Shown in pieces: positions 45,829-64,000 of a stretch of 64,000 bases of DNA. Source of the stretch: Fodinibius roseus (GTDB taxonomy: Bacteria; Bacteroidota; Rhodothermia; Balneolales; Balneolaceae); contig NZ_FQUS01000025.1 in the NCBI RefSeq assembly GCF_900129315.1, positions 1 to 64,000 on the forward strand. The letters are read 5' to 3'. The first letter of the stretch is position 1. Every line of letters begins with the position of its first letter. The notes beneath the pieces were generated by a model. That model ran no database searches. It was not told where the DNA came from and worked only from the letters and a program-made list of their open reading frames with translations. Made by a program: the position numbers and the translations under genes.

Positions 45829-45835
45829 ATAAATT

Positions 45836-47101
45836 ATGAGTAAGAATACAATGGGTCCCATCCCATATGGCACGCAGCATATTACAGATAAGGATATTGA
45901 GGCGGTAACAGAAGTATTGCGGGCTGACTATCTGACTCAGGGACCGCAAATACCACAATTTGAAGAAGCCTTTGCCGACTATATAGGAAGTGATTACGCT
46001 GTAGCTGTTTCTAATGGTACGGCGGCTTTACATCTTAGTGTGTTGGCATTAGGAGTAGAACCGGGACAAAAAGTAATTACTACACCCATTACATTCGCTG
46101 CCTCGGCCAACTGCGTGAAATATGCAGGGGGAGAAGTTGATTTTGTCGATATTGATCTTGATACATTTTTGATAGATCTGGATTTAGTTGAAGAAAAACT
46201 GGTAAATGCTAAGCCAGACGATTATGCCGGAATTATTCCGGTAGATTTTACCGGATTAGCGGTAGATACAGAACGTTTACAGGCTATTGCTGATAAGTAC
46301 GATTTGTGGATTCTAGAAGATGCCTGTCATGCGCCCGGCGGAAGTTTTGAAGATAGTCAGAGAGAGAATGTATATTGCGGAGATTGCCAGTATGCTGATG
46401 CCTCTATTTTTTCCTTTCACCCGGTTAAGCATATTGCCGCTGGAGAAGGAGGGATGATCACCACAAACGATAAAGATTTTAAAAAAAAGTTAGAAGTTTT
46501 ACGAACCCACGGAATTACCAAAGAAACAAATATATTTAAAAATTCTGTAGCGGTAGCATTAGGGGGAAATAATACTATTGATGGCGCGGAAGGGAAGCAG
46601 AAGAAAACTACTCAGCGTTCACCGTCCACTGAATATCCAGGGTGGTATTACGAGATGCAGGAACTGGGATATAACTACAGGCTGACTGATATCCAATGTA
46701 CCCTGGGGTTATCCCAGCTGCAACGTGCTGACCAAGGGCTCCAAAAACGCAGGGGAATTGCCCGAAGGTATGACGAGGCTTTTAAAAATATTGGTGAAAT
46801 TATTACTCAGAATGTGAGTCCAGAGGATCAGGAAAATCACCATGCCTATCACTTATACGTTATTCAGGTAGAAAACCGAAAAGAGCTCTATAATTACCTG
46901 CGGGAGCAAGAAATATACAGCCAGATCCATTATATACCCGTGCATTTATTACCATATTACCAGCAGTTTGGGTGGGAAAAGGGTAACTTTCCCAAGGCCG
47001 AAGAATATTATGAACGTTGCATTAGCCTACCAATGTATCCGACCCTTTCCGACGATCAGCAGGAGTTTGTCATCGAGAAGGTTCTGGAAATAGTAACATG
47101 A
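45836..47101 (+). CDS. pseC: UDP-4-amino-4,6-dideoxy-AltNAc transaminase
   Basis: The 421-residue DegT-family enzyme has the substrate loop SNGTAALHLSVLALGV and the PLP Lys in FHPVKHIAAGEGG (about 199). Its N terminus IPYGTQHITDKDI is typical of PseC. It transfers an amino group to C4 of the PseB product. An insertion (GAEGKQKKTTQRSPSTEYPG, about 247-266) lengthens it slightly over usual PseC. The stop overlaps the pseF start (ATGA). Confidence 0.93.
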   Translation: MSKNTMGPIPYGTQHITDKDIEAVTEVLRADYLTQGPQIPQFEEAFADYIGSDYAVAVSNGTAALHLSVLALGVEPGQKVITTPITFAASANCVKYAGGEVDFVDIDLDTFLIDLDLVEEKLVNAKPDDYAGIIPVDFTGLAVDTERLQAIADKYDLWILEDACHAPGGSFEDSQRENVYCGDCQYADASIFSFHPVKHIAAGEGGMITTNDKDFKKKLEVLRTHGITKETNIFKNSVAVALGGNNTIDGAEGKQKKTTQRSPSTEYPGWYYEMQELGYNYRLTDIQCTLGLSQLQRADQGLQKRRGIARRYDEAFKNIGEIITQNVSPEDQENHHAYHLYVIQVENRKELYNYLREQEIYSQIHYIPVHLLPYYQQFGWEKGNFPKAEEYYERCISLPMYPTLSDDQQEFVIEKVLEIVT

Positions 47102-47781
47102 AAAATTTAGCTATTATACCGGCACGAGGAGGGAGTAAGCGAATTCCGCGAAAGAATATTAAAGATTTTTTAGGAAAACCGATCATAGCCTATTCTATTG
47201 AAACGACTTTGGAGAGTGGGCTCTTTGATGAAGTTATGGTATCAACGGATGATGAAGAGATCTCGACCGTGGCAAAGAAGTATGGAGCAAATATTCCGTT
47301 TATGCGTTCGGATGAAAATGCTGATGATTATGCCACGACGGTAGATGTATTATTAGAAGTCATTGAGGAGTATAGGAACCGGAAAGTGAATTTTGAAAAT
47401 ATTTGTTGTATTTATCCTACAGCTCCATTTACAACTCCACAGGATTTAAAACGGGGATTAGACTTATTAGAAAATTCGACTTCGGTATTACCCGTAGTCG
47501 AATTTGAATTTCCGGTACAGCGTGCGTTAAAAAAAGAAAAGAACCGTATTCATTACGTGTGGCCAGAGCATGAAACAAGCCGCTCGCAAGATCTTGAATC
47601 TTATTATCATGATGCAGGGCAATGGTATTGGATAGAGAACAAATCATTGCTAAGAGAGCAAACTCTTATTACTTCTAATTGTAAAGCCATTGAAAAGAAT
47701 AAGATGGCAGTGCAGGATATTGATATACTTCAGGATTGGGAATTAGCAAAAATGAAGTATTCATACTTAAATAATAAATAA
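47098..47781 (+). CDS. pseF: Pseudaminic acid cytidylyltransferase
   Basis: The 227-residue protein has the CMP-sugar synthetase signature IIPARGGSKRIPRKNIK (5-21) and the YPTAPFTTPQDL segment. It activates pseudaminic acid with CTP. It is placed inside the pse set, before pseG, as in several other bacteria. Unlike the SpsF-like protein at 60527 it has the full GGSKR motif. Confidence 0.93.
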   Translation: MKNLAIIPARGGSKRIPRKNIKDFLGKPIIAYSIETTLESGLFDEVMVSTDDEEISTVAKKYGANIPFMRSDENADDYATTVDVLLEVIEEYRNRKVNFENICCIYPTAPFTTPQDLKRGLDLLENSTSVLPVVEFEFPVQRALKKEKNRIHYVWPEHETSRSQDLESYYHDAGQWYWIENKSLLREQTLITSNCKAIEKNKMAVQDIDILQDWELAKMKYSYLNNK

Positions 47782-47782
47782 C

Positions 47783-48793
47783 GTGCAACGAGTTGTATTT
47801 CGGGCAGATGGGAATTCAGAAATTGGGCTTGGACATGTATATCGTTCGCTGGCTTTTGCTGAAATGTTAAAAGAGGATTTTAAAACGGTATTTCTTATTA
47901 AAAATTCCATTCCAGAGCTTAAAGACACTATACTCGGTACATGTAGCGAGTGTAGTATCTTATCTGACGAAAAGCAAGACCAAGAATTAATTTCAGTTAT
48001 AGATTATATTAATGAAGGAGATATTGTTGTGCTGGATGGCTACCATTTTGATGGAGAATATCAGAAGACTGTACGCAAGCATTGTGGGAATGTTATTTCT
48101 ATTGATGATATGCATCAGGGACATTTTTATAGTGATTATATTTTAAATCACTGTGGGAAGTTAGATCCAGAGATATACGATACAGAATCTTACACGAACT
48201 TACTACTTGGAGAACAATATGCATTGCTACGTCCTGAGTTTTTACAAGCTGCACGAGAGAATAATCGGAAGATTGATACGTCAGATACCTTGTTTTTAAG
48301 TATGGGGGGCAGTGATTTTCATAATTTAACCCATAAAGTCTTAAGATCAGTAATTGATATAGACAGAATCATGAATGTGAATGTAGTTATTGGTGCTGCT
48401 AATAAATATTATGATGAATTAAGAAAAATGGCAGAAGAGAACCCAAAAATAAACATGTTCCGTAATTTATCAGCCGCAGAAATGTGTTTTCTTATGAAGA
48501 AGTCAGACATAGCTATTACTCCTGGAAGTGGAATTTCTTTTGAAGTTTGTGCAGTAGGTATGGGATTTATCAGTGGATATTATACAGAAAATCAGCAGGA
48601 TATTGTCAATTGGTTAGATGAAACTGGATGCGCTTCTATAATAGGAAATTTTTGTAGTTTAGAGGTGAACGATATCCGCAATTATATAAAATCATTTTTG
48701 GATAACGTAGATGTGTCGAAGATGGTTACCAATCAACAAATAGTAGATGGATATTCTGATAAACGTCTACGAAATTTTTTCCAGCGGTTATGA
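47783..48793 (+). CDS. pseG: UDP-2,4-diacetamido-trideoxyaltrose hydrolase
   Basis: The 336-residue protein starts with GTG 47783. FRADGNSEIGLGHVYRSLAFA (5-25) is the PseG signature with the catalytic His in GLGH. It releases UDP from the altrose intermediate, giving the free sugar for PseI. The family also accepts differently N-acylated intermediates, which matters here because the acyl transferases following it are formyltransferase-like. Stop and next start overlap. Confidence 0.92.
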   Translation: MQRVVFRADGNSEIGLGHVYRSLAFAEMLKEDFKTVFLIKNSIPELKDTILGTCSECSILSDEKQDQELISVIDYINEGDIVVLDGYHFDGEYQKTVRKHCGNVISIDDMHQGHFYSDYILNHCGKLDPEIYDTESYTNLLLGEQYALLRPEFLQAARENNRKIDTSDTLFLSMGGSDFHNLTHKVLRSVIDIDRIMNVNVVIGAANKYYDELRKMAEENPKINMFRNLSAAEMCFLMKKSDIAITPGSGISFEVCAVGMGFISGYYTENQQDIVNWLDETGCASIIGNFCSLEVNDIRNYIKSFLDNVDVSKMVTNQQIVDGYSDKRLRNFFQRL

Positions 48794-49416
48794 AGATTCA
48801 GATTTTGATAGATAACCCCAATTCTTGGATAATACCTTATGCTCAACAGTTGGTAGATGAATTATCCTCTGAACATGAAAGTAAATTGGTTCATGAATCA
48901 TCTGGTGTGAGTGAGGGTGATATCTTAGTATTATTGGGATGTGGCGAAATTTTTAAGGACTTGGAACTTAATGAGCACAATCTGGTAGTTCATGAAAGCG
49001 ACCTCCCGAGAGGCCGGGGATGGTCACCGCTAACTTGGCAGATTCTTGAAGGAAAGGATGAAATCCCAGTTACGCTTTTTGAAGCCGTTGACGAGGTCGA
49101 TGCGGGCCCAATCTATTTTCAGAAAACTATTACGTTTGAGGGTCATGAATTAGTGGATGAACTTCGTGAAAAACAAGCTAGAGCGACTATCAAACTTATT
49201 AAAAAATTTATAAATCAATATCCAAATATAGAAGGAAAACCTCAGAAAGGTGAAGCAACTTATTATTCCAGACGAACTCCCAAAAATAGTGAATTAGATA
49301 TTAATAAAACGATTGAAGAACAATTTAATCTCTTACGTGTTTGTGATAATGAACGATATCCGGCTTTTTTTTATAGAAATGGGAGGAAATATAAAATTAA
49401 AATAGCTAAAGATTAG
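48790..49416 (+). CDS. Formyltransferase-like protein in the PseH position
   Basis: The 208-residue protein belongs to the methionyl-tRNA formyltransferase fold: VVHESDLPRGRGWSPLTWQI (about 63-82) and DEVDAGPIYFQK (about 100). The catalytic His and Asp are present, but the Asn two residues before His in the classical N-x-H motif is Val. No GNAT-type PseH exists in the cluster, so this enzyme is the best candidate for acylating the C4 amine of the PseC product, giving an N-formyl pseudaminic acid. The donor would be N10-formyl-tetrahydrofolate. The subfamily is known near pse genes; the reaction in this organism is inferred. Confidence 0.8.
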   Translation: MKIQILIDNPNSWIIPYAQQLVDELSSEHESKLVHESSGVSEGDILVLLGCGEIFKDLELNEHNLVVHESDLPRGRGWSPLTWQILEGKDEIPVTLFEAVDEVDAGPIYFQKTITFEGHELVDELREKQARATIKLIKKFINQYPNIEGKPQKGEATYYSRRTPKNSELDINKTIEEQFNLLRVCDNERYPAFFYRNGRKYKIKIAKD

Positions 49417-49421
49417 GTTTT

Positions 49422-50468
49422 ATGAAGTTAGAGATAGATGAAGTTTTCAATATTGATAATAAAAAGCCGTTTATCATTGCGGAAATGTCCGGCAATCACA
49501 ATCAATCACTTGATCGGGCAAAAAAAATAATAGATGCTGCTGCTGAAGCAAGTGCTGATGCTATAAAGTTTCAGACATATACTGCAGACACGATGACTAT
49601 TCAGGCATCACATGGTCTTTTCCAAATTGATGATGAATCTTCATTATGGGAAGGTTATACGCTATATGAATTATATGAGCAGGCACACACGCCTTGGGAG
49701 TGGCATAAAGAGCTCTTTGCATATGCTAATGAAAGGGATATTATTCCATTCAGTACTCCATTTGATAATACTGCTGTAGATTTCCTTGAAGATTTAGAGG
49801 TTCCTTTTTATAAAATTGGGTCTTTTGAAAACACCCATCATCCCTTGTTGAAAAAAGTGGCTTCAACCGGCAAACCTGTAATTATGTCTACGGGATTGGC
49901 AACGGTAGCTGATCTGGACGAATCAGTTCGTGTGTTACGTGATCATGGTTGTGAAAAGTTGGTGTTGTTGAAATGTACGAGTTCGTATCCGGCAGATGCT
50001 AGTAGTTCAAATTTAAATACTATCCCGCATCTGGCAGACCTTTTTGAGTGTAAAGTTGGGCTTTCTGATCATACATTGGGTATCGGTGCCCCTATTGCAG
50101 CCGTAGCTTTGGGAGCAACTGTATTTGAAAAGCATTTTACACTGAATCGATCTGAGGGAGGAGTAGATGCCGATTTTTCTTTAGAGCCTCAGGAATTAAA
50201 AAAACTGGTAGAAGAGACGAATCGAGCTTGTCAAGCATTAGGAAATATTTCATATGGTATTCAGGAGAGTGAAAAAGCAAGTCTTCGGTTTAAACAATCG
50301 GTGTATGTGGTCAAGGATGTTGAGAAGGGGCAACACTTTACATCTGAGAACACGCGTGTTATACGTCCGGGTGATGGATTGCCTCCCAAATACTATGAAC
50401 GAATACTGGGTAAAAAGGCCAAAGAAAATATTGAAACAGGAACACCATTAAGTTGGGATCTTCTGTAA
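49422..50468 (+). CDS. pseI: Pseudaminic acid synthase
   Basis: The 348-residue NeuB-family enzyme has AEMSGNHNQSLDRAKKI (20-36), IKFQTYTADT, LLKCTSSYPA, GLSDHTLG and FEKHFTLNRSEGGVDADFS, followed by a C-terminal SAF/antifreeze-like domain (about 285-348). The Met-Ser-Gly-Asn-His and GGVDADFS pattern separates PseI from NeuB/LegI. It condenses the altrose sugar with phosphoenolpyruvate. Confidence 0.93.
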   Translation: MKLEIDEVFNIDNKKPFIIAEMSGNHNQSLDRAKKIIDAAAEASADAIKFQTYTADTMTIQASHGLFQIDDESSLWEGYTLYELYEQAHTPWEWHKELFAYANERDIIPFSTPFDNTAVDFLEDLEVPFYKIGSFENTHHPLLKKVASTGKPVIMSTGLATVADLDESVRVLRDHGCEKLVLLKCTSSYPADASSSNLNTIPHLADLFECKVGLSDHTLGIGAPIAAVALGATVFEKHFTLNRSEGGVDADFSLEPQELKKLVEETNRACQALGNISYGIQESEKASLRFKQSVYVVKDVEKGQHFTSENTRVIRPGDGLPPKYYERILGKKAKENIETGTPLSWDLL

Positions 50469-51142
50469 TGAATACATATATAGTTGTTTCCTCAAAACCC
50501 TGGAATAGACACCTATCCAGCCGCCTACAACAAAGAGTAGGGGGTAAATGGCTGCAAATAAAGCGAAAAGAAGAGTTCGTATATAAGCAGCTAAAAAAAA
50601 TAGAACCTAAGTATATTTTGATACCACATTGGTCTTATATAATACCAGAAAAGATTTTTGAAAATTTCGAATGTATCGTCTTTCATATGACAGATTTGCC
50701 CTATGGCAGGGGTGGGAGCCCATTGCAGAATTTAATTAAAGAAGGTCATGAGCAAACACAGATTTCTGCGATACAAGTGGAAAAAGATTTAGATGCCGGC
50801 GATATATATTTAAAACGTCCATTATCCCTATTGGGCACGGCTGAAGAAATTTTTATCCGGGCTGATAAAGTCATTGAAGAGATGATCGTAAATATTATAG
50901 AAGAAGATCCGGAACCCAAAAGACAGCAAGGACAAGTAGTTACTTTCAGTCGGCGTAAACCTGAAGATAGCAGGATTAAAGGTATTACAGGATTGGAGGA
51001 ACTGTTTGATCATATTCGAATGCTGGACGCAGAGGGGTATCCCAATGCATTTTTAGAAACAGAAAGTTTCCGATTGGAATTTAAGCGAGCTTCATTGAAA
51101 ACTGATAAGTTATTAGCTGATGTTAGAATATTTCAAAAATAA
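50468..51142 (+). CDS. Second formyltransferase-like protein
   Basis: The protein has 224 residues from ATG 50468, which overlaps the pseI stop as TAATG; a start at 50453 would lie inside pseI. It has VFHMTDLPYGRGGSPLQNLI (about 72-91) and EKDLDAGDIYLKRPL (about 107), so it keeps the His and Asp of the formyltransferase site but again has Val-Phe where Asn-x is classical. It is distinct from the first copy, and presumably modifies another amine of the same sugar or a different nonulosonic acid. Its last 23 bases overlap the deacetylase gene. Confidence 0.77.
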   Translation: MNTYIVVSSKPWNRHLSSRLQQRVGGKWLQIKRKEEFVYKQLKKIEPKYILIPHWSYIIPEKIFENFECIVFHMTDLPYGRGGSPLQNLIKEGHEQTQISAIQVEKDLDAGDIYLKRPLSLLGTAEEIFIRADKVIEEMIVNIIEEDPEPKRQQGQVVTFSRRKPEDSRIKGITGLEELFDHIRMLDAEGYPNAFLETESFRLEFKRASLKTDKLLADVRIFQK

Positions 51143-51830
51143 ACGTATTTTAGTAGTGGTAGCTCATCCTGATGATGAGCTTCTAGGTCAGGGAGCAACC
51201 ATTCATAAATTATCAAATGAATATGGTTGTACTTGTCGGGCTGTTATTTTGGGAGAAGGGCTTACTTCAAGGTCCGACGAACGAGATCCTCAAAAATGGA
51301 AGCAAGAGCTTGAAGAACACCGGGCCTGTATTCATAAAGCTGTTGATATTATTGGCTATGACTCAGTAGGGATATATGACTTTCCGGACAATCGATTTGA
51401 CAGTTTCGATTTACTGGATATTATAAAGGTAGTTGAAAAAGAGAAGGAAGAGTTTCAACCGGAAATAATATTTACTCACCATGGCGGAGATTTAAATATT
51501 GACCATCAGCGAACCTTTGAATCTGTGATGACAGCAACCCGACCATTGAAAGATGAAAGTGTGAAGACGATTGTTACTTTTGAAACTCCATCAAGTACAG
51601 AGTGGCAGGCGTCAACAGATCCACGACAGTTTAAACCGAATTTATTCATTGGGGTTACAGAACAAAATATGCTTGCAAAATGTAATGGGATGGAGGCCTA
51701 TAAGTTTGAGAAAAGACCTTGGCCTCATCCACGTTCTACTCATGCTTTGAAAATATTGGCTCAAAATTATGGTGTTTCTGTTGGGAAGAAATATAGTGAG
51801 GCGTTTAGGCTAATCCGACAGGTAGAATAA
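51120..51830 (+). CDS. Cytoplasmic PIG-L/LmbE deacetylase of the nonulosonate cluster
   Basis: The 236-residue protein has no signal peptide, in contrast to the exported PIG-L protein at 12957. Zinc-site motifs are VVAHPDDELLGQG (about 13) and THHGGDLNIDHQRTF (about 119). It would remove an N-acetyl group from a sugar nucleotide or nonulosonic acid. The 23-nt overlap with the second formyltransferase suggests that the two act together, deacetylation then formylation of the same nitrogen. Substrate is inferred. Confidence 0.83.
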   Translation: MLEYFKNKRILVVVAHPDDELLGQGATIHKLSNEYGCTCRAVILGEGLTSRSDERDPQKWKQELEEHRACIHKAVDIIGYDSVGIYDFPDNRFDSFDLLDIIKVVEKEKEEFQPEIIFTHHGGDLNIDHQRTFESVMTATRPLKDESVKTIVTFETPSSTEWQASTDPRQFKPNLFIGVTEQNMLAKCNGMEAYKFEKRPWPHPRSTHALKILAQNYGVSVGKKYSEAFRLIRQVE

Positions 51831-53463: not shown

Positions 53464-53523
53464 TATTTTTTGCTATATACATGCTTTTTTAAATATCATT
53501 ATTTTTATTCTACAGATCATAAA

Positions 53524-54516
53524 ATGACAAGTCCAAAAATATTAATCACAGGCGCCGATGGCTTTATTGGGAGCTATTTGACAGAACTGCTACTAGAAGA
53601 AGGCTATAATGTTAAGGCCTTTTGTTATTACAACTCTTTTAACTCTTGGGGATGGTTGGATACATTCCCCAAGAATAAGCTGGATCAAATAGAAGTATTT
53701 ACCGGAGATGTTCGTGATCCCAATGGAGTTCGTACAGCGATGCAAGATGTTGATGCTGTCTTTCATTTAGCAGCACTGATTGGGATCCCTTTTAGTTATC
53801 ATTCACCGGATAGCTATGTGGATACAAATATTAAAGGTACGCTCAATGTACTGCAGGCAGCTCGTGATCTGGAACTTGAAAGAGTATTGGTAACTTCTAC
53901 ATCTGAGGTTTATGGAACGGCTCAATTTGTTCCAATTACAGAAGATCATCCCAAACAGGGGCAATCTCCTTATTCTGCATCTAAGATTGGTGCGGATTAT
54001 ATGGCTGAATCTTTCTTCCGCAGTTTTGATCTACCGGTTACCTTGGTTCGGCCGTTTAATACGTACGGGCCCCGACAATCAGCTCGTGCGGTAATTCCAA
54101 CGATTATTACACAGTTAGCAAGTGGTAAGGAAAAGGTTGAAATGGGCGATTTATACCCCACTAGGGACTTTGTATATGTTAAAGATACGGCAAGAGGATT
54201 CTTAGAAGTTGCAAAATGTGATGAACTTATCGGAGAAGAGGTAAATATTGCTACCCAAAACGAAATTAGCATCGGTCAATTAGCCGAAGAGATTATTGAA
54301 CAAGTTAATCCCGATGCTGAAATTGTACAAGATGAGCAGCGTCTTCGTCCCGAAAAAAGTGAAGTCTATCGTTTGTACGGTTCAAATGAAAAGTTAAAGG
54401 AGTTTACGGGATGGGTGCCTGAATATTCTCTGAAAAAAGGAATTGCAAAAACAATTGATTGGTATAGTAAAGAAGATAATTTGCAACAGTTTAAGACGGA
54501 TATTTATAACATTTGA
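53524..54516 (+). CDS. legB: Sugar-nucleotide 4,6-dehydratase (retaining), LegB-type
   Basis: The protein has 330 residues from ATG 53524; an upstream in-frame ATG at 53470 would add an aromatic tail unlike the family. NAD motif TGADGFIGSYL (about 8), STSEVYGTA, PYSASKIGADYM catalytic Tyr/Lys and RPFNTYGPRQSARAVIPT are seen. These are typical of LegB, which forms the 4-keto-6-deoxy sugar for legionaminic acid. PtmE in the same cluster suggests a GDP-linked substrate. Confidence 0.88.
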   Translation: MTSPKILITGADGFIGSYLTELLLEEGYNVKAFCYYNSFNSWGWLDTFPKNKLDQIEVFTGDVRDPNGVRTAMQDVDAVFHLAALIGIPFSYHSPDSYVDTNIKGTLNVLQAARDLELERVLVTSTSEVYGTAQFVPITEDHPKQGQSPYSASKIGADYMAESFFRSFDLPVTLVRPFNTYGPRQSARAVIPTIITQLASGKEKVEMGDLYPTRDFVYVKDTARGFLEVAKCDELIGEEVNIATQNEISIGQLAEEIIEQVNPDAEIVQDEQRLRPEKSEVYRLYGSNEKLKEFTGWVPEYSLKKGIAKTIDWYSKEDNLQQFKTDIYNI

Positions 54517-55667
54517 TGTCAGATTTAATAGATAATACTGTCAGTTTTATCAGAGATTATTATGAAACGAATGATGTCATCCCTCTCCACGAGCCGCGAT
54601 TTACAGGGAATGAAAAAGAATACGTGGCTAACACTATTGATTCTACCTTTGTTTCTTCGGTTGGGGCCTATGTAGATCAGTTTGAAGAAAATATTGCCGA
54701 GATTTCAGAAACCGATAGAGGAGTAGCCGTAGTAAACGGCACAGCCGCCTTACAGGTGGCATTGCGACTATCAGGGGTAAGCCAGGGGGATGAGGTATTG
54801 ACCCAGGCGTTAACTTTTATAGCTACAGCCAATGCTATTCGATATAACGGAGCCAAGCCTGTTTTTTTGGATGTGGATCGGGATACCATGGGGCTTTCAC
54901 CCAGAGCTGTACAACAATTTTTGGAAGAATATGGAGATGTCCTGGAAGACGGCTGCTATAATAAAAAGACCGGTAATCGCATAGCTGCCTGCGTGCCTAT
55001 GCATACGTTTGGTTTCCCGGTCCATCTGAATGAGTTGCTTTCAGTTTGTGAAAAATGGAATATCCCTGTAGTAGAAGATGCTGCCGAATCATTGGGATCT
55101 TTATATCATGGGAAGTCAACCGGTAGTTTTGGGGAATTTGGAATATTCTCATTTAACGGCAATAAAATTGTTACCGCCGGGGGCGGTGGAGCTATTGTTA
55201 CAAATGATCAGGAAAAGGGGAACCACGCTAAGCATCTTACGACTACGGCTAAGAAGTCCCATGATTACGAGTATTATCATGATGAATTAGGCTATAACTA
55301 TCGTATGCCCAATTTAAATGCAGCCTTAATTTGTGCCCAGTTGGAGCAGCTTGACAGGTTTATTGATAATAAACGATCTTTAGCTGAAAAATACTCAGAT
55401 TTTTTTGAGAAAGAAGGGATCACATTTAGAACGGAAAATCCGGGTGCTAAGGTTAATTACTGGTTAATGTGTGTGGAGCTGGAAGACCGGAAGCAACGAG
55501 ATGATTTCCTGGAGAAAACTAATGAAAAGGGCATCATGACCCGGCCTATATGGCAGCTTATGTACCGTTTGCCTATGTATAAGGATTGTTTCAGGGATGA
55601 TCAGATGAATGCCGAATATCTGGAAGATCGTATTGTAAATATACCTAGCAGCGTCTATGTCAAATAA
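54516..55667 (+). CDS. legC: LegC-type aminotransferase
   Basis: The protein has 383 residues from ATG 54516, which overlaps the legB stop (TGATG). The N terminus VIPLHEPRFTGNEKEYV is characteristic of LegC. NGTAALQVALRLSGV and the PLP Lys in FNGNKIVTAGGGG (about 212) are present. It aminates C4 of the LegB product. The reading frame continues 11 nt into the next gene. Confidence 0.9.
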   Translation: MSDLIDNTVSFIRDYYETNDVIPLHEPRFTGNEKEYVANTIDSTFVSSVGAYVDQFEENIAEISETDRGVAVVNGTAALQVALRLSGVSQGDEVLTQALTFIATANAIRYNGAKPVFLDVDRDTMGLSPRAVQQFLEEYGDVLEDGCYNKKTGNRIAACVPMHTFGFPVHLNELLSVCEKWNIPVVEDAAESLGSLYHGKSTGSFGEFGIFSFNGNKIVTAGGGGAIVTNDQEKGNHAKHLTTTAKKSHDYEYYHDELGYNYRMPNLNAALICAQLEQLDRFIDNKRSLAEKYSDFFEKEGITFRTENPGAKVNYWLMCVELEDRKQRDDFLEKTNEKGIMTRPIWQLMYRLPMYKDCFRDDQMNAEYLEDRIVNIPSSVYVK

Positions 55668-56280
55668 TAAGAATATAATATTAGGATATTCAGGACATGC
55701 TTATGTAGTTGCTGAAGCGGCTTTTAAAGCAGACATAGCAATTCATTATTACGCCGATAAGGAAGAGGCTCAAAATGATCCGTTTAATTTGGATTATTTG
55801 GGATATGAAGGAAGTAATGATTTTGAAGGCTGGAACAAAGGGTTTGGTTTTATTCTGGGAACAGGAAATAATGATATTCGATTCAAGATTGGCGAATTAG
55901 TTACGAATAAAGAAGAAGAACTATTAACTGTTATACACCCATCAGCTGAGATTTCTAAATGTGCTGATGTTGGGAAGGGTACTTTTGTTTCTTCCCAAGC
56001 GAGCGTTAATGCCTTGAGTAAGATAGGTAAATTCGTAATTCTGAATACGAATTGTGTGATTGAACATGAGTGTTATATTGCTGATGGTGTACATATTGCT
56101 CCGGGAGCTGTATTAGCAGGAAATGTAAAAGTAGGGAAAGGTTCGTTTATCGGTGCTAATGCTGTTGTAAAGGAAGGAGTTACCATAGGTGAAAATGTAA
56201 TCGTAGGGGCGGGCGCAACCATTATTAATGATATACCTCATAATAAAAAAATGGTAGGTAATCCGGGTCGAGAAATATGA
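55657..56280 (+). CDS. legH: NeuD/PglD/LegH-type N-acetyltransferase
   Basis: The 207-residue protein has an N-terminal small Rossmann part (IILGYSGHAYVVAEAA) and a left-handed beta-helix of hexapeptide repeats (about 95-200, for example IADGVHIAPGAVLAGNVKVG). It includes the His in NCVIEHECYI, the catalytic base in PglD. It acetylates the C4 amine in the legionaminic path. NeuD-type O-acetyltransferase is the alternative. Confidence 0.82.
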   Translation: MSNNKNIILGYSGHAYVVAEAAFKADIAIHYYADKEEAQNDPFNLDYLGYEGSNDFEGWNKGFGFILGTGNNDIRFKIGELVTNKEEELLTVIHPSAEISKCADVGKGTFVSSQASVNALSKIGKFVILNTNCVIEHECYIADGVHIAPGAVLAGNVKVGKGSFIGANAVVKEGVTIGENVIVGAGATIINDIPHNKKMVGNPGREI

Positions 56281-57305
56281 ATTCTGATAAAGTAATAATC
56301 ATTGCAGAAGCTGGTGTAAATCATAATGGTGATCGTAGTACAGCGGAAAAATTGATTAAGGTTGCAGCTGAAGCGGGCGCTGATTTCGTAAAGTTTCAGA
56401 CGTTTAACGCAGATAAAATAGTAAGCAGAAAGGCACAGAAAGCAGAATATCAGTCAAATAATGTTGGGGGTAGTTCTGACGATCAGTACAGCATGCTGAA
56501 ATCCGTAGAGTTGAGCGACGAGGATCATCAATTTATCATAAAGAAATGTGAAGAAAACAATATCAGGTTTTTATCTACCGCTTTTGATGAAGATGGTATC
56601 GACTATCTTGATCAGTTAGGATTGCCCTTTTTCAAGAGTCCATCCGGCGAAATTACAAACTACCCTTACTTACGAAAACTGGGACAAAAAGGGAAAACGG
56701 TTATCCTTTCCACAGGTATGGCAACCATGCAGGAAGTGAAGAATGCTGTTTCAGTATTGACTGAATACGGATTACAGAAAAAGGACCTAACTGTTCTCCA
56801 TTGTAATACCGAATATCCTACTCCTATGGAGGATGTAAATTTAAAGGCAATGAACACGATTGCAGAAGCATTGGATGTTAAAGTAGGATATTCTGATCAT
56901 ACTTTAGGAATAGAAGTCCCGATTGCTGCCGTAGCGAGAGGTGCAAAGGTGATAGAGAAGCACTTTACTCTTGATAGAGAACTGCCGGGCCCGGATCACC
57001 GAGCCTCTTTAGAACCTGATGAGTTAAAATCGATGGTTGAAGGAATTAGAAATATAGAAAAGGCACTTTCCGGAGATGGCACGAAGAAACCGAGCGAAAG
57101 TGAACAGAAGAATATTGATATTGCGAGAAAAAGTATTCATTTAGCTATAAATGTAAAGAAAGGAGATGTTTTGACTGAGAACGATATCATTCCTCTAAGA
57201 CCAGGAGATGGGATTTCTCCAATGGAATGGAATAATGTTATTGGTAAGCTGGCATTGAAACCACTATCTAAAAATGAACAATTAAGTTGGGATAACCTGC
57301 AGTGA
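56277..57305 (+). CDS. legI: Legionaminic acid synthase
   Basis: The 342-residue NeuB-family enzyme has IIAEAGVNHNGDRSTAEKLI (8-27), VKFQTFNADKIV, FLSTAFDEDGIDYL, LHCNTEYPTP, VGYSDHTLG and IEKHFTLDRELPGPDHRAS, plus a C-terminal SAF domain (about 285-342). The GPDH-S motif is that of NeuB/LegI. N-acetylneuraminate synthase is the alternative; the legB/C/H neighbours favour legionaminate. Its ATG overlaps the legH stop. Confidence 0.9.
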   Translation: MNSDKVIIIAEAGVNHNGDRSTAEKLIKVAAEAGADFVKFQTFNADKIVSRKAQKAEYQSNNVGGSSDDQYSMLKSVELSDEDHQFIIKKCEENNIRFLSTAFDEDGIDYLDQLGLPFFKSPSGEITNYPYLRKLGQKGKTVILSTGMATMQEVKNAVSVLTEYGLQKKDLTVLHCNTEYPTPMEDVNLKAMNTIAEALDVKVGYSDHTLGIEVPIAAVARGAKVIEKHFTLDRELPGPDHRASLEPDELKSMVEGIRNIEKALSGDGTKKPSESEQKNIDIARKSIHLAINVKKGDVLTENDIIPLRPGDGISPMEWNNVIGKLALKPLSKNEQLSWDNLQ

Positions 57306-58417
57306 AAATAGGTGTATTGACAAGTTCAAGGGCAGATTTTGGTATATATCTGCCATTACTGAAACAACTTAAGGAAGATACAAGTATAATTCTTAAGATT
57401 ATTGCTTTTGGGACCCATAGCTCGTTCCATCATGGGCAAACCATTCAAGAGATTAAGGAAAATGGATTTCACAATATAGATACTATCAGTTCCTTACTGA
57501 CGAATGATGATGAGCAATCTATTGCTACCTCTTATGGCTTAACGACGATAAAATTTGCTGACTATTGGTCTTCACATATGTTTGATTTAGTGTTTTGCCT
57601 GGGCGACAGGTTTGAGATGTCAGCAGCAGTACAGGCCGGTGTTCCTTTTGGAATAACTTTCGCCCATATTCATGGAGGGGAAACTACCCTGGGAGCCATT
57701 GACAATGTTTATCGCCATCAAATAACGATTGCTTCAGAGCTGCACTTCACTTCAACCCAAGAGTATGCAAAAAAGGTTAAAGAACTAATTGGGACCAATG
57801 AAAAGATCTATAATGTTGGTTCACTGAGTCTGGATGAAATAAGTAAAATTGAATTAGTGAATCAGGAAAAACTTAGAGACCAATTTAATATACCGCAAGA
57901 TGATTATATTTTAGCGACATTCCATCCTGAGACTGTTGGTAGTCATCAAAATGAAAAATATGCCAAGGAAATGGCATCAGCCTTGCAGTCATTGGCGGAG
58001 CAGTTTATTATAGTTATAACAATGCCTAATGCGGATACGGCCGGTTCCTTGTATAGAAGGGAAATACAGAAATTAAAGGAGTCTCTTTTTCCGGAAGACA
58101 TTGTGATAGTGGAAAATTTTGGAAAAAAGAATTATTTCAGTGCAATACGCTATGCTACTTTACTTATAGGCAACTCCTCGAGTGGAATTATTGAGGCTGC
58201 TTCTTTTGGTAAATATGCAGTGAATGTAGGTGATCGTCAGAAAGGAAGAGCCCAAAATGATAATGTATTAAACTGTAAATTTGATAAGGGGGAGATACTT
58301 GAAACGGTATTTAAAGCGAATGAACTGGGTAGATATCAGGGCGAGAATATCTATTTTAAAGAGAATGTTGCAGATAATATTGTAAGAATAATAAAGTCAT
58401 ATAATGAGACACTTTAA
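57302..58417 (+). CDS. legG: UDP/GDP-sugar 2-epimerase, hydrolysing
   Basis: The 371-residue protein starts with GTG 57302 overlapping the legI stop. The N terminus IGVLTSSRADFGIYLPLLK is the NeuC/LegG signature. LGDRFEMSAAVQAGVPFG, HIHGGETTLGAIDN and IGNSSSGIIEAASFG are all present. It frees and epimerises the 2,4-diacetamido sugar before condensation with phosphoenolpyruvate. Confidence 0.9.
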   Translation: MKIGVLTSSRADFGIYLPLLKQLKEDTSIILKIIAFGTHSSFHHGQTIQEIKENGFHNIDTISSLLTNDDEQSIATSYGLTTIKFADYWSSHMFDLVFCLGDRFEMSAAVQAGVPFGITFAHIHGGETTLGAIDNVYRHQITIASELHFTSTQEYAKKVKELIGTNEKIYNVGSLSLDEISKIELVNQEKLRDQFNIPQDDYILATFHPETVGSHQNEKYAKEMASALQSLAEQFIIVITMPNADTAGSLYRREIQKLKESLFPEDIVIVENFGKKNYFSAIRYATLLIGNSSSGIIEAASFGKYAVNVGDRQKGRAQNDNVLNCKFDKGEILETVFKANELGRYQGENIYFKENVADNIVRIIKSYNETL

Positions 58418-59450
58418 AGAACATCTTATAGAAACTGGTACGACCATTAAAGAGGCATTAATAATTTTAGATAAACTTGCTAAAGATGCTGTTACCTTTG
58501 TAGTTAATAAGGAGGATAAATTATTAGGGTCATTAACCGATGGTGATGTGCGGCGGGGGCTGATTAATGATGTGCAAACAGATCAACCCGTTGATGATAT
58601 CATTCAGTCTGATCCGAAATTTATTCGAAAAAGTAATTATGATATTGAGAAAGTTATAGAATACAGGGAAAAGAATTTTAAAATTTTACCTATTCTGGAC
58701 GAAGAGGACAGAGTAACTAATGTTCTTAATTTCAATTATTTGAAATCTTATTTGCCCGTTGATGTTGTAGTCATGGCAGGAGGGAAAGGAACAAGACTAC
58801 GACCGTTAACTGAAGACACGCCCAAACCACTATTAGAAGTGGGGGATAAGCCAATATTGGAGCATAATATCCAACGGCTATCTGAGTATGGGATGGATGA
58901 CTTTTGGATTTCAGTAAACTATTTGGGTGAACAGATTGAGGATTACTTTGGAAACGGAAATCGTAAAAATCTTCAAATAGAATATGTGTGGGAGGAAACC
59001 CCCTTGGGAACAGCTGGGGCACTGTCTAAGATTGATAATTTTCGCCATGATTATATACTTTTGACCAATTCTGACATTCTGACGAATCTTAACTATGAAG
59101 AGTTCTTTTTAGAGTTTCTGGACCAGAATGCTGATTTTGGAGTTGTTACCATACCTTATAAAGTGGATGTGCCCTATGCGGTATTGGAAACATCAAATGG
59201 GCACGTAATGAATTTTAAAGAAAAGCCGACTTATACCTACTATTCCAATGGAGGAATCTATCTGATGAAGCGGGAAGTGGTTGATTATATTCCAAAAAGT
59301 AAATTTTATGACACCACAGATTTGATGAAAGAACTAATTGAAGACGGAAAAAAAGTTTTTTCTTATCCACACAGTGGGTATTGGCTTGATGTCGGAAAGC
59401 ACGAGGATTTTGAGAAAGCACAGGAAGATATAAAGCATTTAAAAATTTAA
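58404..59450 (+). CDS. ptmE: CBS-domain nucleotidyltransferase, PtmE-like
   Basis: The 348-residue protein has two CBS motifs (about 5-115, FVVNKEDKLLGSLTDGDVRR) followed by a sugar nucleotidyltransferase with MAGGKGTRLRPLTEDTPKPL (about 123-142) and ANSD-like TNSDILTN (about 220). In Campylobacter, PtmE makes GDP-glucosamine for the legionaminic route. The order legB-C-H-I-G-ptmE therefore suggests a GDP-sugar branch. The CBS pair may sense nucleotides. Confidence 0.87.
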   Translation: MRHFKEHLIETGTTIKEALIILDKLAKDAVTFVVNKEDKLLGSLTDGDVRRGLINDVQTDQPVDDIIQSDPKFIRKSNYDIEKVIEYREKNFKILPILDEEDRVTNVLNFNYLKSYLPVDVVVMAGGKGTRLRPLTEDTPKPLLEVGDKPILEHNIQRLSEYGMDDFWISVNYLGEQIEDYFGNGNRKNLQIEYVWEETPLGTAGALSKIDNFRHDYILLTNSDILTNLNYEEFFLEFLDQNADFGVVTIPYKVDVPYAVLETSNGHVMNFKEKPTYTYYSNGGIYLMKREVVDYIPKSKFYDTTDLMKELIEDGKKVFSYPHSGYWLDVGKHEDFEKAQEDIKHLKI

Positions 59451-59455
59451 CATTT

Positions 59456-60520
59456 ATGTTACCACAAAATGAACCTTATTTAATTGGAGAAACTGCCTTT
59501 CATCATGAAGGGGATGTAGATTTTTTACGAGACTTAATAGCCAAAGGAGTTGAGGCAGGGATCGATGCTATAAAATGTCATCTGTTATTAGATATAGATG
59601 ACTATATGGTTGGGTCTCATAAAGCAATAGAAAAGCTAGAGGAGATGTGTATTCCGGAAGATCAATGGAATGAAACTCTGGATTTTATTAAAACTATGAA
59701 TATTGATCCTATATTTTTGTGCAATGATGTGGCTTCCTTTGATTGGGTAATTCAAAATGGCGAGCAAATTCAAGCAGCTGAAATACATGCCACGGGTATT
59801 AATGATGTATTTTTACTTGAGAAGGCTGCTGAATTTAGAGGTACTATTATTCTTGGTGCCGGGGGGTCTACTATTGACGAAATTGAATTTGCTGTTGATT
59901 TTCTTAAAAAGAGAGAACAGGATGATATTTTTTTGATGCATGGTTTCCAAAATTATCCGACGGATTATAGAGATGTCATTTTTTCAAAAATGGATATTTT
60001 AAATAAAGTCTTTAAACTCCCAGTGGGATATGCGGACCATACTGATCCAGAAGATGAGCTAAATGAGTATATATCATGCCTACCGCAATCCTCTGGCTAT
60101 AACACTCTTGAAAAACATTTTACTCCCTTGCCACATGAAGAAAGAATTGATTCACAAGCTGCAGTTAGTGTGAAGCAACTGAAAAATATTCGCGAATTGA
60201 TGGATATGGTTTGGCAGACCAATGGTATCGATGCTCCATTAAAAATGTCTGAGGCTGAGAAAAATTATGGTGATGTTGGGCCTATGAAAAAAGCTCTTGT
60301 TGCAAGGAATGATCTGGAAAAAGGGACTGAAATAACAATAGAAGACCTCGCCTATAAAAGAACGAATAACAGTGTGCCTATTAAACAAAATGATATATAT
60401 AATTTCATTGGAGCAAAAACAACAGATTATGTTTCCAAAGATACTCCACTCACTTACAATAATGTAAAGTATCGTTTTGAGAAAGGAGATATATCACAAT
60501 TTAAATTAGACGAAGATTAA
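59456..60520 (+). CDS. Third, divergent NeuB-like synthase
   Basis: The 354-residue protein is the third NeuB homologue in the cluster. Recognisable are VGYADHTDPEDE (about 198-209), LEKHFTPLPHEERIDSQAAV (about 221-240) and a C-terminal SAF-type domain (about 285-345). The N terminus GETAFHHEGDVDFLRDLIAK replaces the A-E-x-G-x-N-H-N-G block, and AIKCHLL replaces the usual V-K-F-Q-T. The strongly changed substrate region but retained E-K-H-F suggests an active PEP-condensing enzyme with another aldose acceptor. A degenerate paralogue with a regulatory role is the alternative. Confidence 0.75.
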   Translation: MLPQNEPYLIGETAFHHEGDVDFLRDLIAKGVEAGIDAIKCHLLLDIDDYMVGSHKAIEKLEEMCIPEDQWNETLDFIKTMNIDPIFLCNDVASFDWVIQNGEQIQAAEIHATGINDVFLLEKAAEFRGTIILGAGGSTIDEIEFAVDFLKKREQDDIFLMHGFQNYPTDYRDVIFSKMDILNKVFKLPVGYADHTDPEDELNEYISCLPQSSGYNTLEKHFTPLPHEERIDSQAAVSVKQLKNIRELMDMVWQTNGIDAPLKMSEAEKNYGDVGPMKKALVARNDLEKGTEITIEDLAYKRTNNSVPIKQNDIYNFIGAKTTDYVSKDTPLTYNNVKYRFEKGDISQFKLDED

Positions 60521-60526
60521 GGAATA

Positions 60527-61321
60527 ATGAAAATAGGTTTTTTAATAACAGCTCGTCTAAAATCAACAAGACTTCCTTTAAAATTATTAATGGATTTGAA
60601 TGGAAAGCCTATTGTTGTAAGAGTCATTGAAAGAGCCCAAAAGGTTTATAACATCGATGATATAATTCTTTGTACATCTACGAATAAGCAAGATAAACCT
60701 TTAACTGATATAGCTTTAAAAAGCAATATTCACTATTACCTTGGTAGTGAAGAAGATGTATTGAAACGTTTGACAGATGCCAGCAATTTTTATGGTTTAG
60801 ATTATGTATTATCGATTACTGGTGAAAATCCTCTTTTCTCTGTGACACATGCAAATCGAGTGGTTGATACAATTATCGAAGAAGAACCGGATTTTACTTA
60901 TTTAGAAGGTTTGCCTATCGGCTGTGGTGTTAGTGGCATTAAGGTTAAGGCTTTAGAGGTGATTTGTAAGATAAAAAAAGTAATTGATACAGAGATATGG
61001 GGACCCCTAATTAATCAGCCATCGATTTTTGATGTGCATAAGATTGTAGTCAATGAATTTTATCGGAAGCCTGATTTAAGAATCACAACTGATTATATAG
61101 AAGACTATCAGTTTATAAATACGTTATTTAGTCACTTTGAACCTGATGATATCCCTTCTTTGGCTTCTATTATGGAATTGCTAGATACTCATTCAGAATA
61201 TTTGGAAATACATAAGGAACGAGAGCAGGAAGAATTATCTGAAAATAAATTGAGTGAGATTAAATCATTTTATATTAACAACAAAGATCAAGTAGAAGAA
61301 ATAAAGAATTCTATCTATTAA
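60527..61321 (+). CDS. SpsF-like cytidylyltransferase
   Basis: The 264-residue protein has ITARLKSTRLPLKLLMDLNG (7-26), the SpsF variant of the CMP-sugar synthetase loop, and LSITGENPLFS in place of the usual D-x-P-L. It follows the third NeuB-like synthase after 6 bp and would activate that product with CTP. No other candidate for legF is in the window, so it might serve the legionaminic product instead. The C-terminal tail (about 225-264) is charged and probably helical. Confidence 0.77.
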   Translation: MKIGFLITARLKSTRLPLKLLMDLNGKPIVVRVIERAQKVYNIDDIILCTSTNKQDKPLTDIALKSNIHYYLGSEEDVLKRLTDASNFYGLDYVLSITGENPLFSVTHANRVVDTIIEEEPDFTYLEGLPIGCGVSGIKVKALEVICKIKKVIDTEIWGPLINQPSIFDVHKIVVNEFYRKPDLRITTDYIEDYQFINTLFSHFEPDDIPSLASIMELLDTHSEYLEIHKEREQEELSENKLSEIKSFYINNKDQVEEIKNSIY

Positions 61322-61371
61322 AAATATATTAAGCTGGTTTAGCTAGGTAAATAATTCTTTTGAAAGGATTT

Positions 61372-62739
61372 ATGATTCTAAGTAGAAGTGATCTTCGTGA
61401 TCTTATCAATAAAATTGAAAACGATTACTCCGTAACAGAGTGGAAACATAATGGTTATTATATATGGCCTGTTCTGCGTATTCAACTATACTTAATGTTA
61501 ACAAAAAAGGATGAAAAAGATAACAGAGTTAATGCTGCAAAGAAAAATCGTTTAAAGAATGTTTTTGAATTAATAAGAGGGGCCTCTGTTTCTGTAGTAG
61601 ATTATCTTAAACTAGAAAGAAATTATGAGAGTATTTATTGTGGTGCTCCTAGTCACCGGGTTAATTATCAAGGGCTATGTTATAACCGATACTTCGATTA
61701 TTTAATGGATAAAGAATCTGCTAAGACTTTATTAATGGAGCGAAATGCAAGGACCAAGGCTGGTTATTATAAACCAGGACGGGTGATATTGATTTCTGAT
61801 TTATTAAAGTGTCATCGATTAGATCTAAAGGCAGGTGATTTTGTAGGTCGCATAAACAAGTATGTGAAAAGATTCGAAGAAATAATAAAAAAAGAGAATT
61901 TGGAAATCAGTAATTACGCTTCTCAAGCTACTCGATATATTTCCAATGTTGAACGAGCAGTTTCTTTTTTTAAAAAATTCCTTCAAAAAACTAATCCAGA
62001 GAAAGTATATGAGCTTTGTTATTATTCTACCAGTTTATTGGGGCTTAATATTGCCGCTGATCAATTCGATATAAAAACAATCGATGTACAGCATGGGCCT
62101 CAAGGAGAGCAACACTTAGCTTATGGTTCATGGCATTCTGTACCTAAAGAGGGATACGAGGCAATTCCTGATGAATTTCATACATGGGATAAATCTTCCG
62201 AAAATACTATTCGCAATTGGACTGATACAACGCAAAAACATACTGCCAAGTGTAAGGGTAATCCTTGGGTAGAAGGATGGAAAAGAGGAGAATTTAGTTC
62301 AAGTGGATATCAGTATCCTGAGAATTTAGTACTGTATACCTTGCAACCGGTCAAGAACCCTTTAGAAGGATATTTACTTGAAACAATTAAAAAAACTTCA
62401 AATAAATGGAATTGGTGGCTTCGCATTCATCCTAGGCAAAAAGGAGAATTAGATAGTTTGAAAAATAAACTACATGAGCATAAATTGCTTGAAGCAGTCA
62501 ATATTGATGACGCTTCCGAACTTCTTTTACCAGAAATTTTGCTCAATACAAAAGTTCATTTGACAAAATTCTCGGGTTGTGCTATTGAAGCGTATCAATT
62601 CGGAATACCTACAATTATTTTAGATGAGATAGGAGAAGAGGTATTTAAGGATTACTTCGGAAAAGAGAATATGAGTAGCTATACGGGGGAAAAATCAGAT
62701 ATTTTGATCCAAAAATTAATTACTTACATCTCAAATTAA
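61372..62739 (+). CDS. Capsule/LPS transferase-like protein of unknown specificity
   Basis: The protein has 455 residues from ATG 61372, preceded by AAAGGA; a TTG at 61360 is an alternative. No membrane helix is seen. IDVQHGPQGEQHLAYGSWHS (about 238-257), the ELLLPEILLNTKVHLTKFSG segment and CAIEAYQFGIPTIILD near the C terminus resemble GT-B sugar transferases of surface polysaccharide clusters, including polysialyltransferase-like proteins. A nonulosonate transferase is a sensible guess from context. No confirmed family can be given. Confidence 0.55.
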   Translation: MILSRSDLRDLINKIENDYSVTEWKHNGYYIWPVLRIQLYLMLTKKDEKDNRVNAAKKNRLKNVFELIRGASVSVVDYLKLERNYESIYCGAPSHRVNYQGLCYNRYFDYLMDKESAKTLLMERNARTKAGYYKPGRVILISDLLKCHRLDLKAGDFVGRINKYVKRFEEIIKKENLEISNYASQATRYISNVERAVSFFKKFLQKTNPEKVYELCYYSTSLLGLNIAADQFDIKTIDVQHGPQGEQHLAYGSWHSVPKEGYEAIPDEFHTWDKSSENTIRNWTDTTQKHTAKCKGNPWVEGWKRGEFSSSGYQYPENLVLYTLQPVKNPLEGYLLETIKKTSNKWNWWLRIHPRQKGELDSLKNKLHEHKLLEAVNIDDASELLLPEILLNTKVHLTKFSGCAIEAYQFGIPTIILDEIGEEVFKDYFGKENMSSYTGEKSDILIQKLITYISN

Positions 62740-63532: not shown

Positions 63533-64000
63533 ATGTCTGATAAACAAATATTTATTGTAGGAACTGGTCGATCTGGGACTTCAATTTTAAAAAAGATCCT
63601 AAACCATCATTCAAAAATATATACATATCCTAAGGAACTTCGTTTTATATCTGATACTGATGGTCTCATAGACTTAAGAAGGGCATTGACAACAGATTGG
63701 AATCCTCATAACACTAGCAGCACTATTAAAAATTTTGTAACCCTTTTGACGAGAGATTTGTTTATGACTAACTTGCCTGACAGGATATTGAACTGGCTAT
63801 TTGTAAATGTTTTTTCTGGATCCGGAAAAAAATATAGTAATGTTACTATAAAGGATTTTATACCTATCGGACATATAAAAAAATGTTTGGATCTATTCTT
63901 AAATAACTTAGGCATAGAAATAATATCTGGCTATTGGTATGGTTCAAAATCCTACCAATTAAAACCAAAACTTTATTTTAGCCGACCCTTAACTACAAAT
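63533..64000 (+). CDS. Sulfotransferase-family protein (3' end outside window)
   Basis: The open frame from ATG 63533 runs past the window edge, giving 156 residues. IFIVGTGRSGTSILKKILNH (6-25) is the PAPS-binding 5'-phosphosulfate loop of sulfotransferases. The rest is incomplete. In this cluster it would sulfate the polysaccharide. Confidence 0.75.
   Translation, partial: MSDKQIFIVGTGRSGTSILKKILNHHSKIYTYPKELRFISDTDGLIDLRRALTTDWNPHNTSSTIKNFVTLLTRDLFMTNLPDRILNWLFVNVFSGSGKKYSNVTIKDFIPIGHIKKCLDLFLNNLGIEIISGYWYGSKSYQLKPKLYFSRPLTTN

Follow-up and report, generated by a model that had tools for sequence, protein, structure and literature searches.

Gene content is the basis for predicting nulosonate pathways. 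Among the closest described systems is the legionaminate (Leg) pathway of Bacillus subtilis, for which the part of the report available to us states that spsF is required for Leg on the spore surface and not for Leg synthesis, that the mutant was not complemented, and that the authors assign spsF to the CMP step (PMC7439481). The CMP-Leg pathway proposed there comprises six enzymes, SpsE and SpsF among them, and names no further NeuB in that same part (PMC7439481). In the pseudaminate (Pse) cluster of Vibrio B9-25K2, an aldo-keto reductase carries a fused SpsF-like domain that, as the authors suggest, may replace the absent NeuA; unlike the gene pair described below, the available section mentions no second NeuB-like partner (PMC7371886). 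No description of a NeuB-like partner of SpsF was found in the open-access literature searched.

We focused on a 64,000-nucleotide stretch of Fodinibius roseus DNA (contig NZ_FQUS01000025.1; hereafter, the window) from a genome of 5.08 Mb (G000). Like SpsE-SpsF, the window holds a NeuB-family gene (hereafter, X) and an SpsF-like cytidylyltransferase gene (hereafter, Y) in one Leg pathway. SpsE, however, is the Leg synthase itself, and its aligned stretch carries the canonical blocks EAGINHDG, KFQ and KIAS; in the window LegI has that role, and X is extra and altered. X and Y lie where a preliminary description of this DNA had placed them, Y being 6 bp downstream of X, and the two ordinary synthases that it had listed are also present, each above its own equivalog cut-off (Table 1). 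The legionaminate operon encodes LegB, LegC, NeuD, LegI, NeuC and a ptmE-like CBS/NTP-transferase protein, with X and Y directly 3'. No LegF was found in this operon or elsewhere in G000 with PF02348 searched over the whole genome. The pseudaminate operon encodes PseB, PseC, PseF, PseG and PseI, with two formyltransferase-like genes and a gene for a PIG-L deacetylase-like protein placed around PseI; family scans of this operon named no PseH, and its product could be an N-formyl derivative.

Table 1 Coordinates of nulosonate-related and neighboring features in the window, with the basis of each assignment.
Feature	Coordinates	Strand	Basis
Pseudaminate operon	44794-51830		
Pseudaminate synthase (PseI)	49422-50468		TIGR03586 491.9 bits, above cut-off 340.25
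Legionaminate operon	53470-59450		
legB, NAD-dependent 4,6-dehydratase	53470-54516	+	TIGR04180 507.5 bits, cut-off 475
legC aminotransferase	54513-55667	+	TIGR04181 545 bits, cut-off 420
neuD-type acetyltransferase	55657-56280	+	TIGR03570 186.5 bits, cut-off 160.8
legI, canonical nulosonate synthase	56277-57305	+	TIGR03569 476.2 bits, above cut-off 399.65
neuC-type 2-epimerase	57302-58417	+	TIGR03568 370.3 bits, cut-off 235.9
CBS + NTP-transferase protein, ptmE-like	58404-59450	+	Family scans
X, NeuB family, GFQ clade: TIM barrel + SAF	59456-60520	+	Pfam, tree, residues, model
Y, SpsF-like cytidylyltransferase (CTP_transf_3), probable CMP-legionaminate synthetase	60527-61321	+	Pfam, gene content, tree
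459-aa protein, candidate nulosonate transferase	61360-62739	+	Recurs near X-Y elsewhere
Sulfotransferase-family gene, runs past the window end	63533-64000		

Y matched CTP_transf_3 at 77.5 bits, the family that it shares with LegF, PseF and NeuA, and it sits at the place expected for LegF. Its scores were below the equivalog cut-offs for PseF (20.2, cut-off 205.7) and kdsB (39.8, cut-off 155.2), and the former agrees with the earlier statement that Y is of a different subtype from PseF. A quick tree built from 69 cytidylyltransferase rows, with two pairs identical and several long branches, placed Y among 51 SpsF-like rows that group together (SH-aLRT 97), separate from a LegF/PseF group of 14 rows (91), three KdsB rows (99) and one loose row. 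By sequence, Y is not the ordinary LegF that the preliminary description had named as speaking against its proposal. The solved chain scoring best for Y was 6oew, a cytidylyltransferase that is presumably from Leptospira. SpsF-like enzymes without X also adjoin canonical synthases at four loci (L010, L011, L093 and L099), in agreement with the B. subtilis spsF genetics. The economical reading, which we consider probable, is that Y is a CMP-legionaminate synthetase.

With 96.6 bits against PF03102 (cut-off 22.1), X belongs to the NeuB family. Its SAF domain scored 34.4 bits (cut-off 21), and the EKHFT and ADHT motifs reported earlier were confirmed along with that domain. Both synthase equivalog cut-offs are missed (TIGR03569, 124.8 vs 399.65; TIGR03586, 83 vs 340.25). 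The AlphaFold model of X (mean pLDDT 91.6) had NeuB-family chains at the top of both lists of structural matches, followed by DAHP and KDO8P synthases, and compared with N. meningitidis NeuB (2wqp) it gave a VIA Z of 32.5 and an rmsd of 3.5 over 325 residues. X is therefore like NeuB, LegI and PseI in its fold, SAF domain and putative metal site, and unlike them in these scores and in its PEP-surrounding residues and 70-85 loop, which are changed or missing.

The NeuB-family tree included 86 rows (37 X1, 10 X2 and 39 LegI/PseI-type). L054, L084, L060 and L045 were dropped because they duplicate L042, L044, L059 and the window, respectively. A phylogeny of NeuB homologues had been proposed as a check in the preliminary description, and it sets X apart: X1, the clade of the window, has a support of 100/100, the LegI/PseI-type synthases form a branch of their own (39 rows, 100/100), and all 47 X rows are outside that branch. 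X2 is a deeper branch between X1 and LegI/PseI, in which L088 is weakly placed (92/70). The Gly and Gln of a GFQ motif are present in 47/47 X rows (the middle residue is Phe in 45 and Tyr in 2), and Trp71, His111 and Tyr271 in 45, 44 and 45 of the 47. Membership in the NeuB family and the position in the leg operon would also fit a divergent legionaminate or sialate synthase duplicate, redundant with LegI, but the placement of all X rows outside the LegI/PseI branch, their distinct residue signature, and a canonical synthase also recognized in 32 of the 41 loci with an unfused X (several of the other nine are short contigs) make this very improbable. We rejected X as an ordinary LegI duplicate on the tree and the residues.

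Residues are numbered as in N. meningitidis NeuB, and the residue table was made without the long-branched row L064_2275. According to the available part of a published comparison, PEP is surrounded by positions 110, 129, 131, 132, 182 and 184, of which 132, 182 and 184 are less conserved, and positions 70-85 bear on C4-C6 specificity (PMC7371886); His215 and Glu234 appear in a catalytic-site list in the accessible part of another report (PMC6795526). In our alignment, X1 departs from the PEP-surrounding pattern of a nulosonate synthase at positions 110, 129, 131, 182 and 184. Position 129 is Glu or Asp in 37/37 X1 rows vs Lys in 38/38 LegI/PseI rows, and position 110 is Leu or Met in 37/37, compared with Thr (31), Ser (6) or Ala (1) in the 38 LegI/PseI rows. 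X1 has His at 131, Gly at 182 and Gln at 184 (each 37/37), and because these three positions also vary among true synthases, 110 and 129 weigh most. Position 132 (Ser in 24 X1 rows, Ala in 13) is the exception among the PEP-surrounding positions, and the LegI/PseI rows keep Ser132 together with Lys129 (38/38). Position 213 is Ser in 38/38 LegI/PseI rows vs Ala (35) or Thr (2) in X1.

At the other end of the site, X1 keeps Lys53, Asp214, His215, Glu234, His236 and Asp247 in 37/37 rows and Glu25 in 36/37. Among these are the four residues of the putative metal site (37/37 at each), in which His215 and His236, with Glu234 and Asp247, presumably hold the metal. Newly conserved in X1 are His111 and Gln165 (37/37) and Trp71 and Tyr271 (36/37). 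Position 74 is a gap in 47/47 X rows, and the loop for the far end of the acceptor (70-85) is changed or missing. Arg314 is kept in 25/26 X1a and 10/10 X2 rows, and all 11 X1b rows have Met or Leu at this position. The blocks NHNG and VKFQ, earlier described as lost, are altered in X, with His at the positions of both Asn29 and Gln55, and are not wholly lost: X retains Glu12, His17, Gly19 and Lys40, which correspond to Glu25, His30, Gly32 and Lys53 of N. meningitidis NeuB. Judged from the aligned residues, the larger change in X is on the PEP side, not on the acceptor-block side. The overall pattern suggests that the metal and carbonyl end is strongly constrained and that the PEP end has been rebuilt in X1, which appears to have given up PEP binding. 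A lack of PEP-binding residues is what the preliminary description had named as speaking against its proposed synthase, and in the X1 sequences they are lacking. The PEP argument is confined to X1, because X2 keeps Lys129 in 10/10 rows (position 110 is Asp or Glu, 10/10).

To see how widely X occurs, we scanned 84,980 species, each represented by one genome; the query was an alignment of five X sequences, and one of two short peptide patterns was required. The scan returned 44 loci in Bacteroidota, Pseudomonadota, Bacillota, Omnitrophota, Magasanikbacteria and several archaeal lineages, which rules out a local oddity. In an even sample of 395 genomes from the phylum of the window, X1 was found in five (G000, G006, G190, G152 and G300), the inspection of weaker matches covering those with loci only. 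Plasmids had only distant NeuB relatives, with <60% identity in 33/33 records.

The genome-neighborhood survey suggested in the preliminary description showed a conserved pair. X adjoins Y in 38 loci and is fused to it in four, together 42 of the 43 testable loci, which exclude the window as well as L052 and L075 (at or ≤125 bases from a contig edge); L092, with no Y in reach, is counted as a miss. The X-Y gaps range from -32 to 84 bases, with the exception of L058 (1341 bases). X precedes Y in X1a and in unfused X2 but follows it in X1b, and a further X-Y fusion of 554 aa was found in G422. Such adjacency and fusion, together with the changed PEP pocket, are what would be seen if X had no catalytic role and served Y as a subunit or chaperone, by binding the nulosonate or stabilizing Y. 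We consider this improbable, since the seven residues from Glu25 to Asp247 listed above are kept in 36 or 37 of 37 X1 rows over very divergent genomes, and the newly conserved residues (His111, Gln165, Trp71 and Tyr271) are as expected of an active site.

The neighborhood legC-neuD-legI-neuC-ptmE-X-Y is recurrent, and the order legI-neuC-ptmE-X-Y is seen in many loci. Genes for SDR (13), Gfo/Idh (11) and YhcH-type proteins (16) are neighbors among 46 loci; the YhcH-type family includes N-acetylneuraminate anomerase. In L079, L081, L091 and L094, X-Y is in a Pse cluster with no PseF in the stretch, as it is in L083, which is cut by the contig end. Within the fetched stretches, L064 is the only X1 locus with LegF, located beside a second synthase ~7 kb from X. 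In two X2 loci (L073 and L089), LegF and LegI are encoded in the same operon as X-Y. G425 has an X-Y fusion and, in addition, an SpsF-like gene next to its canonical synthase.

The 459-aa protein encoded directly after Y had no Pfam or NCBIfam match, and the profile of its family gave no meaningful match to solved structures. The family is present in 15 loci, including the window, and an alignment of nine members has an invariant QHG plus invariant His, Pro, Gly and Ser positions, which in our assessment resemble those of TagB-type transferases. The protein is a candidate nulosonate transferase.

PF02348 is the family of the classical CMP-nulosonate and CMP-Kdo synthetases. Over whole genomes, its members are PseF and Y in G000 and Y only in the relatives G006 and G190, and the NeuB family is represented by LegI, PseI and X in G000 and by LegI and X in both relatives. 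We counted these genes in 29 X-Y genomes (the five from the phylum sample and 24 of those with the 44 loci). Canonical synthases were PF03102 matches >190 bits with X rows excluded, and CMP-transferases were PF02348 matches >45 bits with KdsB-like full-length matches >150 bits excluded (two of the latter were checked, and both pass a KdsB cut-off). With assignments made by score and position and several genomes metagenome-assembled, synthases equaled NulO-type CMP-transferases in 26 of the 29 genomes. One synthase and Y alone were found in 19 (G006, G190, G300, G411-G416, G419-G421, G423, G426-G429, G432 and G434; in G427, a NeuB row of 211 bits with a weakly supported place in the tree, 92/70, was taken to be X). 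Seven have two synthases and two transferases (G000, G152, G418, G422, G424, G430 and G433), the second-cluster synthases of G418, G422, G424 and G430 being taken as canonical on score alone. Unbalanced are G425, with one synthase and two transferases, and G431, with two and three; G417 is 1:1 by score and was set aside, with its synthase and X-Y on different contigs and a broken SpsF-like remnant beside the synthase.

For comparison, 24 genomes with a NeuB-family match but without X1 were picked from the 395-genome sample. All 24 have a CMP-transferase that scored 65 bits or more and is not KdsB-like, LegF and SpsF types not being distinguished for each, and in 23 it is ≤15 kb from the NeuB match on the same contig, the exception being G273. 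In G382 of this set, the NeuB match is part of an X2-like fusion. No KdsB-like full-length PF02348 match was seen in five genomes from the family of the window (G000, G006, G190, G074 and G318), which may be without Kdo; such matches are present in 17 of the 24 further X-Y genomes and in G290, also of the window's family.

Because synthases and NulO-type CMP-transferases balance 1:1 in most of these genomes, Y most likely activates legionaminate, and because Y is the only NulO-type transferase in 19 of them, the pair seems to complete the Leg pathway, not to form a route beside it. In G000, Y is the only CMP-transferase left to the Leg pathway, in which it would catalyze the activation step, so the separate third sugar pathway suggested in the preliminary description is not the best reading, and we rejected a third full pathway on the same whole-genome result. 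What stands of that suggestion is a distinct NeuB clade, a Y that by sequence is neither LegF nor PseF, and their conserved pairing; a third condensing synthase and a further sugar are doubtful.

The best explanation, which we hold about as likely as not, is that X-Y serves as an activation module for CMP-nulosonate, in which the partner of Y derives from NeuB and is independent of PEP. X and Y would be the last part of the legionaminate operon, in which Y would stand in for the missing LegF and couple CTP to the nulosonate made by LegI; gene content and the known need for SpsF in B. subtilis are the reasons for putting Y in the place of LegF. X would be a NeuB-derived enzyme that has lost PEP binding but keeps the part of the ancestral active site around the metal and the carbonyl. 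Its adjacency and fusion to Y suggest that it is useful to Y, and since its residues also do not look PEP-dependent, X may act just before Y takes over, the simplest substrate being the free nulosonate or its six-carbon precursor. We can only guess at the step, which might be a tailoring, epimerizing or conformer-fixing one that gives the right form for Y. The more specific proposal, that X is a NeuB barrel working without PEP and converting free nulosonate (e.g., by epimerization) before the SpsF-like enzyme adds CMP, is tentative and rather doubtful.

The strongest observations against an activation module are L073, L089 and G425, where X-Y looks additional, and G431 also has one transferase too many. 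Moreover, the B. subtilis pathway has SpsE and SpsF without a further NeuB, so Y-type enzymes need not have X, and the Gfo/Idh and SDR genes near X-Y could mean a separate metabolite. The frequent closeness of these genes is likewise in line with X being a real condensing synthase of altered specificity, using another donor or a small acceptor, whose product would be a second keto-acid sugar activated by Y with or without legionaminate. This is the reading of the preliminary description. Such an enzyme would fit the NeuB fold, after which KDO8P and DAHP synthases are the next-ranked structures, and the nearly invariant putative metal and carbonyl end. It would also fit X2, in which Lys129 is retained and which occurs together with LegF in two loci. 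However, Lys129 is gone in 37/37 X1 rows and the other PEP-surrounding positions except 132 are changed, X has no distal acceptor loop (position 74 gap, 47/47 X rows), no conserved aldose-making candidate was seen beyond the Leg genes in loci with only X and Y, and in 19 genomes a single Y would need to activate two acids, all of which make a condensing X unlikely. Since the X of the loci in which X-Y looks additional is X2, with Lys129 retained, an older X may have been a synthase with its own product and X1 a later change, a history that would reconcile both readings.

If X does convert free nulosonate in this way, it would be the first of an undescribed enzyme type, and bacteria and archaea would have a second and widespread way of activating nulosonates, with a sugar missed by current annotation. 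As an activation module, the pair would also imply that it is wrong to call clusters without LegF or PseF incomplete, or X-bearing clusters multi-synthase. X-Y is a test case for a PEP-dependent synthase fold turned to other chemistry, for which fusions exist. The parts are from known families, and their combination, with a rebuilt NeuB, may be new.

The 8-epilegionaminate ela genes of Acinetobacter were considered as an explanation of the Gfo/Idh and SDR neighbors and were not supported: ElaA is described as a putative oxidoreductase, with no NeuB-like part named in the available portion of the report (PMC9676051), and Acinetobacter is absent from the 44 loci of the pattern-dependent species scan. 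In Leptospira, several synthases and CMP-synthetases are in one cluster, none of them tied to X in the accessible part of the source (PMC3438082), and the part available of another report describes ordinary pseudaminate genes (PMC7591256). A lead on the Treponema denticola flagellar glycan gave nothing of use for X.

Several other gene arrangements were observed. Fusions of NeuB and SpsF-like domains of 558-591 aa are encoded at L020 (1495-3174), L033 (1495-3171) and L038 (1498-3273); those of L020 and L033 are without the GFQ motif and have another NeuB gene directly downstream. At L073 (7190-8569), a PseF/LegF-like domain is fused behind a glycosyltransferase-like domain, and a second LegF-like gene adjoins. 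A short SpsF-like remnant lies inside the Pse cluster of L104 (6199-6567, minus strand), from the same Halalkalibacter genome as L083, in which the X-Y pair is on another contig than the remnant.
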